From NCBI GenBank assembly GCA_025458525.1, contig JALOSF010000016.1, forward strand, positions 1-39,313: a DNA stretch of 39,313 nt. The letters run 5' to 3'. The DNA comes from Cypionkella sp. GTDB taxonomy: Bacteria > Pseudomonadota > Alphaproteobacteria > Rhodobacterales > Rhodobacteraceae. The notes below the pieces were generated by a model that made no database searches, was not told the origin of the DNA, and saw only the letters and a list, made by a program, of their open reading frames with translations. The position numbers and the translations under genes were made by a program. Shown in pieces: positions 28,014 through 32,877 of this stretch. Position 1 is the stretch's first letter. The number at the start of each line of letters is the position of its first letter.

Positions 28014-29621
28014 ATGGCGATTACCTCTGCCAACCAGCTTGAGCTTTTGCAGACCGCCGAGGCCGTGGCGCGCGAAAAGATGATCGACCCGGATCTGGTG
28101 ATCCAGGCGATGGAGGAAACGCTCGCCCGTGCCGCCAAGTCGCGTTACGGCAGCGAGTTGGACATCCGCGTGAAGATCGACCGCAAGACCGGGCGCGCAA
28201 CCTTTGCCCGCATCCGCACCGTGGTCGAGGATGAGGCGCTGGAGAATCACCATGCCCAGCTGACCGTCAAGCAGGCGAAAAGCTATCTGGCCGATCCCCA
28301 GATCGGTGACGAGGTCATCGACGAGGTGCCGCCGGTCGATCTGGGCCGGATCGCCGCGCAATCGGGCAAGCAGGTGCTGTTGCAGCGCGTGCGCGAGGCC
28401 GAGCGGGACCGTCAGTTCGACGAATTCAAGGACCGCAAGGGCACGATCATCAACGGCGTCGTCAAGCGCGAGGAATACGGCAACGTCATCGTCGATGTGG
28501 GCCGGGGCGAGGGTATCCTGCGCCGCAATGAAAAGATCGGCCGCGAGGCTTATCGCATCGGCGACCGGATCCGCTGCTATATCAAGGATGTGCGCCGCGA
28601 AGCGCGGGGTCCGCAGATCTTCTTGTCGCGCACCGACCCGCAGTTCATGGCCGAGCTGTTCAAGATGGAAGTGCCGGAAATCTATGATGGCATCATCGAG
28701 ATCAAGGCTGTGGCCCGTGACCCCGGGTCGCGTGCCAAGATTGCCGTGATTTCCTATGACAACTCGATCGACCCGGTGGGCGCCTGCGTTGGTATGCGCG
28801 GCAGCCGGGTTCAGGCTGTGGTGAATGAACTTCAGGGCGAAAAGATCGACATCATTCCGTGGAATCAGGATCAGGCGACTTTCCTTGTGAACGCATTGCA
28901 GCCTGCCGAGGTGTCCAAGGTCGTGATCGACGAGGAGATCGGCAAGATCGAAGTCGTGGTGCCGGACGAGCAGCTTTCGCTGGCCATCGGTCGCCGCGGG
29001 CAGAACGTGCGTCTGGCCAGCCAGCTGACCGGCCTTGACATCGACATCATGACCGAGGCCGAGGAATCGCAGCGTCGTCAGGCCGAATTCGCCGAGCGCA
29101 CCAAGCTGTTCATGGACACGCTGGATGTGGACGAGATGATGGCGCAGCTTCTGGTCTCCGAAGGGTTCACCAACCTTGAGGAAGTGGCCTATGTCGAAGA
29201 AGACGAGTTGTTGTCGATCGACGGCTTTGACGAAGGCACCGCAGCCGAATTGCAGGCGCGCGCCCGCGACTATCTTGAAGAACAGGCCCGCAAGGCGCTT
29301 GAGAATGCCCGCAGCATGGGTGTCGAAGAAAGCCTTATCAACTTTGACGGGCTGACGCCGCAGATGCTTGAAGCCCTGGCCAAGGACGGGATCAAGACGC
29401 TGGAAGACTTCGCCACCTGCGCTGACTGGGAGCTGGCTGGCGGCTGGACCACGGAAAATGGCCAGCGCAAGAAAGACGAAGGCATTCTTGAAAAGTTCGA
29501 TGTCAGCCTGGAGGAGGCGCAGACACTGGTGATGACCGCGCGGGTCATGTTGGGCTGGGTCGATCCGACCGAGATGGACGCGGCCGAAGACGACGCCGAA
29601 ACCGAGGAGGCCGAGGCCTGA
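28014..29621 (+). CDS. nusA: Transcription termination/antitermination factor NusA
   Basis: 535 aa. N-terminal RNA-polymerase-binding domain (~1-130), S1 domain ([25 protein letters not shown]), two KH domains ([34 protein letters not shown]) and a C-terminal part with two acidic helix-hairpin-helix-like repeats ([42 protein letters not shown]), normal for proteobacteria. It binds RNA polymerase and modulates pausing, termination and rRNA antitermination. GGGAG precedes the ATG, 16 bp after rimP. The stop codon lies within an 11-bp inverted repeat (29611-29634). Confidence 0.97.
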
Positions 29622-29634
29622 TCTCAGGCCTCGG
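29611..29634 (+). promoter_or_regulatory. Hairpin over the nusA stop codon and the ylxR ribosome-binding site
   Basis: CCGAGGCCTGA, TC, TCAGGCCTCGG: 11 perfect pairs (inner ones cannot all form across so short a loop). The TGA of nusA is in the left arm, and the first two bases of GGAG (29633-29636), the site for ylxR, are in the right arm. Ribosomes finishing nusA would open it, so ylxR translation is probably coupled to nusA. Confidence 0.55.
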
Positions 29635-29644
29635 AGCAGCGCGC

Positions 29645-30289
29645 ATGACGCGTGGCGGGCGGGACAAGGATCGCGACGAACCGGAACGCAAATGCATTGT
29701 GTCCGGGGAAAGCCAGCCAAAAGCGGGTCTGATCCGCTTTGTGCTGGGCCCGGAAGGCATGATCGTGCCGGATATTCTGGCACGCCTGCCGGGTCGGGGC
29801 ATCTATGTCGAGGCCGATCGGTCGGCCCTTGCCAGGGCGGTCAAGAAAAACCTGTTCTCGCGCGCCGCACGCCAGCCTGTTACAGTTGCGGATGATCTGC
29901 CTGATATGGTTGAACGCCTGTTGGCACAGCGGGTGATTGATCTTATATCGCTGGCACGCAAGGCGGGTGACGCATTGTGCGGTTACGAAAAGGTCAAGGA
30001 TTGGCTGATCAAGGGTCAGGCCAGGACCTTGATTCAGGCCAGCGACGGTTCTGAACGCGGGAAAGAAAAACTTCGCCCGCCGAATGGGCCGGAATCCCTG
30101 ATTTCCTGCCTGACGGCGGGGGAATTGGGTTTGGCATTCGGCCGCGAACGTGCCATACACGCCGCGCTTGCGGCTGGTGGACTCAACAACCGTGTTGTAG
30201 AGGAAGCGGCAAGGCTTGTCGGACTGCGTGGGGCAGAGGACAAGCAGGTCGGCGACATGATCGCCGGGAAGGATACGAAGGACGCATGA
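29645..30289 (+). CDS. YlxR-family RNA-binding protein with L7Ae-like C-terminal domain
   Basis: 214 aa. N-terminal YlxR/DUF448 domain ([42 protein letters not shown], ~14-60), then an L7Ae/L30e-like domain (~95-190: [40 protein letters not shown]...). Both are nucleic-acid-binding folds. In Firmicutes these are two separate genes (ylxR, ylxQ) in the same operon position; here, as in other alphaproteobacteria, they are fused. The role is probably in translation or RNA control. The ATG is 23 bp after the nusA stop, and its site is partly sequestered in a hairpin. It overlaps infB by ATGA. Confidence 0.92.
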
Positions 30290-32877
30290 GCGATACAGAC
30301 GGCAAAAAACCCCTTGGTTTGGGTGGCGCACCTCGTTCTGGTCAGGTGAAGCAAAGCTTCAGCCATGGCCGGACGAAAAGCGTCGTGGTTGAAACGAAGC
30401 GCAAGCGCGTGGTCGTTCCCACAAAGCCGGGCGCAGCCGCGGGCGCAACGGGTGCAGGCGGCGGGTCGCCCTCGCTTGGTGATCCGGCGAAACGTCCTGC
30501 GGGGATTTCAGACGCCGAGATGGAACGCCGTCTGGCGGCGTTGCGGGCCGCAAAGGCACGCGAAGCCGCCGACAACGAACGCCGCGCCGAAGAAGAGCGT
30601 CAGCGTGAGGAAGATCGTCAGCGTCGCCGCGAGGAAATCGAAGCCAAGGAGCGCGAGGAGCGGGAGCGTCTGGAAGCCCTGCGCCTGAAGGCCGAGGAAG
30701 AAGAACGCGCCGCGCGCGCCGAGGCAGAGGCCCGCTTGGCCGCCGCAGCCCAGCGCAAGGCAGAGGTGCTTGGCACCCGCCCACGCTCGGCCGAGAAGCC
30801 CGCGCCAGAGCCGAAGCAAGCCGCGCCGGCCGAAAGTGCCGCCCCGTCGCGTTCGCAAGACGCAGCCGGGCCGCGCGGTGTTGCCGCAAAGGCCCCCCTT
30901 GCCCCCGCGCCCCAGCGCAAGACCGACCGTGAGCGCGAGGAGCGCGAGCGCAGCGCAAAGGCAAAGGGCGATGACAGCCGTCGTGGTGGCAAGCTGACCT
31001 TGTCGGCGGCGCTTGATGGCGAAGGTGGCCGGACGCGCAGCCTTGCCGCGATGAAGCGCAAGCAGGAAAAAGCCCGTCAAAAGGCGATGGGTTTTGGCAA
31101 CAAACCCGAAAAGCAGGTGCGCGACGTGCAGCTGCCCGAAACCATCGTGGTGTCGGAACTTGCCAACCGGATGGCGGAACGTGCGGCTGATGTGGTCAAG
31201 TCGCTCATGAAAATGGGCATGATGGTCACGATGAATCAGGCCATCGATGCCGATACCGCCGAGTTGGTGATCGAAGAATTTGGCCACAAGGCGGTGCGCG
31301 TGTCCGACGCCGACGTCGAACAGGTGATCGATACGGTTCAGGACAAGCCAGAAGATCTGGCGCCGCGTCCGCCGATCGTGACGATCATGGGTCACGTTGA
31401 CCATGGCAAGACCAGCCTGCTGGACGCGATCCGCAAGGCGAATGTGGTCGCCGGTGAGGCGGGTGGCATCACCCAGCACATCGGTGCCTATCAGGTCAAA
31501 ACCGCCAATGGCGCCTTGGTCACGTTCCTCGACACGCCCGGTCACGCCGCCTTTACCAGCATGCGGGCCCGTGGCGCACATGTGACGGATATCGTCATCC
31601 TGGTGGTTGCGGCCGATGATGCGGTCATGCCGCAGACGGTCGAGGCGATCAACCACGCCAAGGCGGCGAAAGTGCCGATGATCGTGGCCATCAACAAGAT
31701 GGACAAGCACGGCGCGGATGCCACCAAGGTGCGGACCGATCTGCTGCAACACGAGGTCGTCGTGGAGGCGATGTCGGGCGACGTGCAGGATGTCGAGCTG
31801 TCGGCCAAGACGGGCATGGGTCTGGACAATCTGCTTGAGGCGATCTCGCTTCAGGCCGAGATCCTGGAACTCAAGGCCAACCCGCACCGTGCCGCTTCGG
31901 GCGCTGTCATCGAGGCAAAGCTGGATGTGGGACGCGGCCCCGTCGCAACCGTTCTGGTGCAGAACGGCACCCTGCGCAAAGGCGATATCTTTGTCGTCGG
32001 CGAACAGTGGGGCAAGGTGCGCGCGCTGGTCAACGATCAGGGCGAAACGGTGCTGGAGGCTGGCCCCTCGGTTCCGGTCGAAGTGCTTGGCCTTTCGGGC
32101 ACGCCTTCGGCTGGCGATACGCTGAACGTGGTCGAAACCGAAGCGCAAGCGCGTGAAATCGCTGATTATCGGGAAAAGGCGGCCAAGGACAAACGCGCCG
32201 CTGCCGGTGCGGCCACCACGCTGGAACAGCTTATGGCAAAGGCCAAGGCCGACCAGTCGGTCGCCGAATTGCCGGTTGTCATCAAGGCCGATACCCAAGG
32301 CTCTGCCGAGGCTATCGTGCAAGCGCTGGAAAAGGTTGGCAACGACGAGGTTCGGGTGCGCGTGCTTCACTACGGTGTTGGCGCCATCACCGATACCGAT
32401 GTGGGTCTGGCCGAAGCATCGAACGCGCCGATCATCGGGTTCAACGTGCGGGCCAATGCGTCTGCGCGCCAATCAGCCAACCAGAAAGGGGTCGAGATTC
32501 GCTATTACTCGATCATCTATGATCTGGTTGATGACATCAAAGCCGCCGCCTCTGGCCTGCTCAAGGCCGAAGTGCGTGAAACCTTTATCGGTTATGCGCA
32601 GATCAAAGAGGTGTTCAAGGTTACGGGCGTTGGCATGGTTGCCGGCTGCCTTGTCACCGAAGGTGTCGCCCGCCGGTCGGCCGGTGTTCGCCTGCTGCGT
32701 GACAGTGTCGTGATCCACGAAGGCACGTTGAAGACGCTGAAGCGTTACAAGGACGAAGTGAAGGAAGTGATTTCGGGTCAGGAATGCGGCATGGCGTTCG
32801 AGCGCTATGAAGACATTCGTCAGGGCGATGTCATCGAAATCTTCGAGCGCGAAGAAGTGCAGCGCACCTTGGCCTAA
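30286..32877 (+). CDS. infB: Translation initiation factor IF-2
   Basis: 863 aa. A long charged N-terminal region (~70-260) rich in Arg/Glu/Ala, probably helical and partly disordered, then the IF2 N-domain and the GTPase: [16 protein letters not shown] (G1), [12 protein letters not shown] (G2), [10 protein letters not shown] (G3), [10 protein letters not shown] (G4) and SAKTGMG (G5), followed by the beta-barrel domains, and the fMet-tRNA-binding C2 domain from about 775. It brings fMet-tRNA to the 30S subunit. The start ATG 30286 overlaps the ylxR-like gene (ATGA). Internal in-frame starts for shorter forms, as in E. coli, are possible but not identified. A long terminator follows. Confidence 0.97.

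Follow-up and report, generated by a model that had tools for sequence, protein, structure and literature searches.

A hairpin over the nusA stop codon as the likely spacer of a split ribosome-binding site for ylxR in Rhodobacteraceae

In most of the Rhodobacteraceae sampled here the nusA-ylxR junction carries an RNA hairpin that contains the nusA stop codon and is mostly preceded, at the foot of its 5' arm, by a strong Shine-Dalgarno (SD) sequence encoded in the last nusA codons. We propose that ylxR likely has a split ('accommodated') ribosome-binding site in which the hairpin is the spacer, and that the hairpin would aid translation of ylxR and not silence it. The junction was analysed in the window, by which we mean the whole stretch of DNA studied (39,313 bases). 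Pfam assigned the coding identities RimP, NusA, YlxR/DUF448 and IF-2, giving the operon order rimP, nusA, ylxR, infB. The closest named relatives of the source genome are Pseudotabrizicola, with a YlxR that is 90% identical. The features of the locus are as follows.

28014..29621, + strand: nusA coding sequence, stop TGA at 29619-29621 (Pfam NusA_N, KH_5)
29605..29610, + strand: AGGAGG, the proposed SD of ylxR, in nusA codons GAG GAG GCC; its last base adjoins the 5' foot of the hairpin
29611..29634, + strand: predicted hairpin, with 5' arm 29611-29620, loop 29621-29624 and 3' arm 29625-29634
29633..29636, + strand: GGAG, a weaker linear SD, 8 nt before the ATG, with two bases in the 3' arm
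29635..29644, + strand: linker between hairpin and ylxR start, 10 nt
29636..29656, + strand: small predicted hairpin with the ylxR start codon in its 5-nt loop
29645..30289, + strand: ylxR (DUF448, Pfam) coding sequence, start ATG at 29645
30286-32877: infB, IF-2 by Pfam

The hairpin is formed by an exact 11-nt inverted repeat, CCGAGGCCTGA and TCAGGCCTCGG, separated by 2 nt. Folding of the repeat as RNA gave a 10-bp stem with an AUCU tetraloop (-20.3 kcal/mol, z = -5.7), an energy matched by 0/200 shuffles. The stem probability was 1.00 in the window and averaged 0.96 over the 131 junctions of the canonical set (stem of 9 bp or more). The first-pass annotation had described a perfect 11-bp repeat with the nusA stop in one arm and half of a GGAG in the other. 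The sequence agrees with this: the TGA occupies the loop-proximal end of the 5' arm, and two bases of the GGAG at 29633-29636 lie in the 3' arm. The element that was overlooked is the stronger SD, AGGAGG, abutting the 5' foot. The hairpin sequence is single-copy in the source genome (87% complete; up to 3 mismatches searched), and a repeat family was rejected on this ground. The idea of a k-turn in the loop was abandoned on inspection by eye. There were no Rfam matches at the gathering score in the window, and the one sub-threshold match lay on the other strand (E 0.52). No description of a nusA-ylxR hairpin was found in the titles and abstract openings of the open-access literature, among the matches listed.

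Conservation was assessed on 202 nusA-ylxR junctions including that of the window, 185 of which are distinct. Besides the window's own, they were drawn from 80 named loci (the best 80 of 410 relatives), 13 of 14 genus-level loci (an incomplete one was left out), 28 loci from an order-level search and 80 additional regions. The order-level search matched 196/196 genomes, and 86 junctions, mostly lower-ranked, lie outside the sample. Starts and stops were assigned automatically, and 2 of the 185 starts are invalid start codons. With a hairpin defined by energy as -8 kcal/mol or better, 6 bp or more and spanning the nusA stop, 160 of the 185 distinct junctions carry one. Counted by length, a stem over the nusA stop reaches 7 bp or more in 159, 9 bp or more in 132 and 10 bp or more in 114 junctions, while the corresponding rates in 9,250 shuffles were 7.8%, 1.2% and 0.38%. 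The position is also constant, the 5' arm ending on the second base of the nusA stop in 131 of 176 stems (redundant set).

The alignment used to measure covariation comprised 147 distinct segments out of 159; all had been chosen beforehand for carrying a stem of at least 7 bp, which biases the share of paired cells upward. In these 147 preselected rows, 69 cells had changed on both sides with the pair kept, compared to 15.1 +- 3.3 in shuffles. The covariation score was 0.226, compared to 0.139 in shuffles and 0.05-0.10 with the partner slid. A 105-tip YlxR tree (FastTree) requires a minimum of 12 changes from one Watson-Crick state to another across five pairs. The first-pass annotation had offered covariation in related genomes as a check, and the expectation is borne out by the stem in 160/185 junctions and by recurrent compensatory changes. 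Non-Watson-Crick pairs, tallied in 132 junctions chosen by Watson-Crick count only, were G.U in 65 cases, A.C in 3 and other in 20. This excess of G.U over A.C indicates that selection acts on the sense-strand RNA and not on DNA. RNAalifold on the raw MAFFT alignment returned only a 4-pair consensus (-1.26 kcal/mol), which we attribute to misregistration of rows whose loops differ in length.

The hairpin appears to be a feature of the family. Among 28 loci outside the Rhodobacteraceae, none has a stem of at least 9 bp over the presumed nusA stop; two had an 8-bp stem, and the stop assignment is doubtful in about six of the 28. A covariance model of the hairpin produced matches at E <= 0.1 in 32/115 class-level genomes under stricter filters, including the source genome and one family member. 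None of the matches outside the family lay at the nusA-ylxR junction, with two genomes (G279, G305) having no YlxR match to compare, and the same arrangement was absent from the four that were read by eye. Two further matches in the source genome, elsewhere, were weak (E 0.02 and 0.05). A stem at a stop codon is not unique in itself. Crude gene calls in two relatives gave stems of at least 9 bp at 14/193 (260 kb) and 3/89 (140 kb) gene ends, and of at least 10 bp at 6/193 and 2/89; the six include the nusA hairpin and its antisense shadow, and the two include the nusA hairpin. The perfect, conserved stem at nusA is unique, conservation having been compared for this stem alone. At one other gene end (G003:C9, 136015-137230, - strand, within L242) the stop lies inside a strong stem, CGGGTGGCCTGAGCGGCCACCCG, followed by GGGGATG; no gene was called close downstream.

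SD strength was scored by anti-SD energy, with -6 kcal/mol or better taken as strong and -9 as very strong. A sequence taken to be the 16S tail with its anti-SD, TGGATCACCTCCTTTCA, is present in the source genome; it differs in its last base from the usual tail. The AGGAGG of the window scored -10.4 kcal/mol. Over the 131 canonical junctions, the mean energy of 7-mers peaked at the foot (-9.15 kcal/mol) and was only -0.4 to -2.4 kcal/mol for 7-mers ending 4 to 40 nt farther upstream. A strong SD was found just upstream of the 5' foot in 117/131 canonical junctions, and 145 of the 160 junctions with a hairpin have a foot SD of -6 or better.

This SD is spelled by nusA codons -5 and -4 and the first base of codon -3, which together read GGAGG. 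The third base is G in 95% of hairpin junctions at codon -5 and in 91% at codon -4, compared to 10% and 8% at codons -6 and -7. Codon -5 ends in G in 148/155, and where it does not encode Glu it is mostly GCG, CAG, ACG or GTG. Glu at codons -4/-5 is written GAG in 247/267 instances in hairpin junctions, against a background farther up of 260/783; in junctions without a hairpin the figures are 24/36 and 78/142. These codon counts indicate that the foot SD is selected at synonymous sites. It also occurs together with the hairpin: GGAGG stands at the fixed place in 124/160 junctions with a hairpin and 7/25 without (Fisher p = 2e-6, kinship ignored). In 7 tree-based pairs, a mean of 3.7 agreed with this association, 0 were opposite and 3.3 showed no difference, in a test that is one-sided in direction and underpowered (median p = 0.125).

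Folding of the hairpin would cut the SD-to-start spacing from about 34 to about 10 nt. Across the sample, the SD core ends at the hairpin foot in 109/144 junctions; the linear SD-start spacing is 33-35 nt in 91/144, and with the hairpin removed it is 9-11 nt in 97/144. The linker is 9-11 nt in 94/131 canonical junctions. Regression of foot-to-start distance on hairpin length gave a slope of 0.43 +- 0.09 for all 143 junctions. A split by linear SD, chosen after this overall slope was seen, gave a slope of 0.78 +- 0.11 where no strong SD other than the foot SD exists (n=87) and -0.07 +- 0.14 where a linear SD is also present (n=56). With stop and start 17 nt or more apart, a very strong linear SD (-9) is found in 9/36 junctions without a canonical hairpin and in 10/131 with one (p = 0.007). 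Among the 26/202 junctions without a 7-bp stem, the nusA-ylxR gap is 5 nt or less in 9. The combination of GGAGG, a stem of -14 kcal/mol or better, a 5-12 nt linker and a start codon was found only at nusA-ylxR in about 440 kb (the window plus 260 kb and 140 kb of two relatives), with one other GGAGG case at a stem of -12.4 kcal/mol. As a point against, five control cores in place of GGAGG also gave 7 stem-plus-start matches at the looser limit of -10 kcal/mol.

The foot SD and the spacing data suggest that the hairpin most likely assembles the ylxR ribosome-binding site. The starting point can be read directly from the sequence: a strong GGAGG in the last nusA codons ends where a stable hairpin under selection begins, and from the 3' foot of this hairpin it is about 10 nt to the ylxR start. 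A 30S subunit would then pair with the foot SD; with the hairpin looped out, its P site would receive the ylxR start codon. A ribosome finishing nusA would melt the hairpin and cover the SD, and the site would re-form on its departure. As the nusA stop is inside the stem, each nusA ribosome would have to open the hairpin. Because it would at the same time cover the SD, ylxR initiation would alternate with, or be handed over from, nusA termination. Since folding brings the foot SD and the start together, breaking the stem should lower, not raise, YlxR. From comparative sequence data we infer that the 30S uses the foot SD with the hairpin folded, that the nusA ribosome has this effect and that the arrangement may have a regulatory purpose.

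Split sites are known from phage T4, where, in the sections of the source considered here, an RNA structure cuts the SD-start spacing from 27 to 11 nt for gene 25 and from 22 to 5 nt for gene 38, mutations that destabilise the structure reduce initiation, and it is retained in close phage relatives (PMC3014915). As in T4 gene 25 (at the gene 26-25 junction) and gene 38, the nusA-ylxR junction has a strong SD that is too distant, with an RNA structure between that makes the spacing usable, and close relatives share the structure while distant ones are without it, as far as those sections describe the phages. Its looped-out spacing of 9-11 nt is near the 11 nt of gene 25, the two being compared by geometry alone. 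A distant strong SD, a selected intervening hairpin and a looped-out spacing in the functional range, three of the marks of a split ribosome-binding site, are all seen in the nusA-ylxR sequences. Unlike the T4 cases, nusA-ylxR belongs to a chromosomal core operon across a bacterial family, with the SD coded in nusA, and the upstream stop lies inside the stem (this comparison leaves aside the T4 gene 26 stop). In E. coli thrS, an upstream single-stranded domain is needed beyond the hairpin, whereas in nusA-ylxR the SD itself sits upstream of the hairpin. thrS is likewise a chromosomal mRNA with an accommodated hairpin, a split site at which the ribosome is said, in the part of the source used here, to accommodate the hairpin without unfolding it (PMC3936740).

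Several observations weigh against a split site. The 10-nt spacing exceeds the aligned optimum of 5 nt, as given in the relevant part of PMC3936740. The foot SD is predicted to be only partly open, with an unpaired probability of 0.70 in the window and a mean of 0.61 over the 131 junctions; for the start codon the mean is 0.62. A linear GGAG is also present in the window, where the best linear SD is CGGAGC at -5.8 kcal/mol. When the 185 junctions are classed by strong SD, those with a hairpin comprise 88 with the foot SD only, 57 with both foot and linear SD, 7 with a linear SD only and 8 with neither, and those without a hairpin comprise 14 with a linear SD and 11 with none; 57/160 hairpin junctions thus have both sites and 15/160 lack a strong foot SD. 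The overall slope is only 0.43. Linear SDs at the looser cut-offs are not significantly more frequent where a canonical hairpin is missing (-6, p = 0.13; -7, p = 0.10), and the tree-based pairs of hairpin and GGAGG fall short of significance.

The first-pass annotation had assigned the hairpin the opposite function, proposing that it sequesters the ylxR site until a ribosome terminating nusA melts it. Its view that the role concerns ylxR translation is most likely right, and the ribosome at the nusA stop, which would cover the whole 5' arm, should indeed melt the hairpin. The part that fares poorly is the hiding of the ylxR SD, given a foot SD in 117/131 junctions. Sequestration was the model that we tested first; accessibility favoured it mildly, and it was demoted after the codon and SD profiles. 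The fixed place of the nusA stop in the stem (131/176) fits it, as does the best linear SD, which overlaps the 3' arm by one base or more in 126/159. With the hairpin (n=159), 23.7 kcal/mol are needed to open positions -18..+13, and without it (n=26) 15.7; blocking the terminating-ribosome footprint relieves 10.0 and 7.7 kcal/mol, respectively. Non-AUG ylxR starts, 39/159 with the hairpin and 1/26 without, would fit dependent initiation. The mechanism is of a known kind, and as in f1 VII-IX, MS2 coat-lysis and rpmI-rplT, the end of the upstream frame takes part in a structure close to the downstream start, according to the portion of the review drawn on here (PMC12548453). However, in RNA-unfolding coupling as described there the downstream site is hidden, while in nusA-ylxR the start codon is outside the stem, as is the strongest SD in most junctions, and folding shortens the distance. 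Sequestration gives no reason for a selected GGAGG outside the stem, and the linear SD that it would hide is weak in most species sampled (strong in 10/131 in the linker alone, and in 52/131 when three 3'-arm bases are counted). Refolding should also outpace 30S binding, a kinetic objection raised as well in the excerpted review, and the start would be too close to the stop for a second 30S while the first stays. Because the strong SD lies outside the stem and comes closer to the start on folding, the role first proposed is probably reversed, and we consider sequestration unlikely. The window carries both SDs, and the weaker one may be sequestered.

The ylxR start codon, in the loop of the small predicted hairpin, is 98% unpaired in the window. 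Around the start, inverted repeats like that of this hairpin were also seen by eye in near relatives and not in several distant ones. Starts of TTG, GTG or apparently CTG were noted in hairpin junctions, for example L026, L041, L043, L050, L062 and L158.

A split site with its SD inside nusA also bears on coupling between the two genes. The nusA stop and the ylxR start are 22-25 nt apart in 139/176 hairpin junctions. In the sections of PMC10666635 used here, reinitiation drops steeply with distance: three E. coli pairs lose 40-80% of it at +14 nt, it is weak at about 20 nt, and in H. volcanii it is close to zero at 22-23 nt. Once the nusA ribosome has left, rapid refolding of the hairpin is expected. 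Positive nusA-ylxR coupling via hand-over is no more than possible; if coupling is positive, a hand-over with an SD-held 30S would be the form that fits the geometry. The GGAGG would pair with the terminating nusA 30S, 8 nt before the stop; the 50S and tRNA would leave; and refolding of the stem would push out the nusA stop and bring the ylxR start into the P site of the 30S, which would still be tethered. We give this tethered variant rather little credence. If it were true, folding would replace about 24 nt of scanning and allow tight coupling where ordinary reinitiation is weak.

The GGAGG may instead act on the terminating nusA ribosome, by pausing it or anchoring its 30S, with the hairpin as a separate barrier or insulator. 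The GGAGG ends 8 nt before the stop, so that the anti-SD could pair during stop reading, and post-stop structure correlated negatively with coupling in one screen, as reported in the portion of PMC12548453 used here. Against this, the GGAGG accompanies the hairpin (124/160 compared to 7/25) and its foot, and the foot-to-start distance tracks hairpin length where the foot SD is the sole strong one; an action on the nusA ribosome appears a poor candidate. Hairpins drive NusA pausing, and the Rhodobacter puf mRNA has intercistronic stability hairpins; a GC-rich stem of suitable size between nusA and ylxR-infB could in this way serve mRNA processing or stability, or a NusA-sensitive transcription pause. 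We regard this as very improbable: a stem bearing the stop would be melted by every nusA ribosome, the U-tract of an intrinsic terminator is absent (the stem is followed by AGCAGCGCGC), and the foot SD and the 9-11 nt linker are left unexplained. The 24-bp sequence is nearly palindromic, but a protein site on DNA has next to nothing in its favour given the sense-RNA pattern of G.T and A.C exceptions (65 and 3, with 20 other), and neither has chance given stems of 10 bp or more in 114/185 junctions compared to 0.38% of shuffles.

A split ribosome-binding site thus remains the likely reading. Start prediction and RBS models usually seek an SD that is close to the start in the linear sequence. 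A covarying example found throughout a family, and in a core operon, would demonstrate that hairpins serve bacteria to bridge a distant SD. It would also show that the ribosome-binding site of one gene can consist of synonymous codons at the end of the gene before it, and that a stop codon within the bridge lets the site sense ribosomes on the upstream gene. Natural variants, losses and replacements of the site make direct tests of the mechanism feasible.

Three minor observations concern ylxR and its neighbours. The C-terminal half of YlxR (residues about 95-214; 29645-30286) is without a Pfam match; alphaproteobacterial YlxR may carry an L7Ae-like domain. ylxR and infB overlap by ATGA (30286-30289), a -4 nt spacing that is tied to termination-reinitiation coupling in the part of the source used here (PMC10666635). 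An antisense open frame of 235 aa (29624-30331, - strand) runs over ylxR and ends within the same hairpin, because the palindrome yields a stop on both strands; it is probably a shadow frame of GC-rich DNA.
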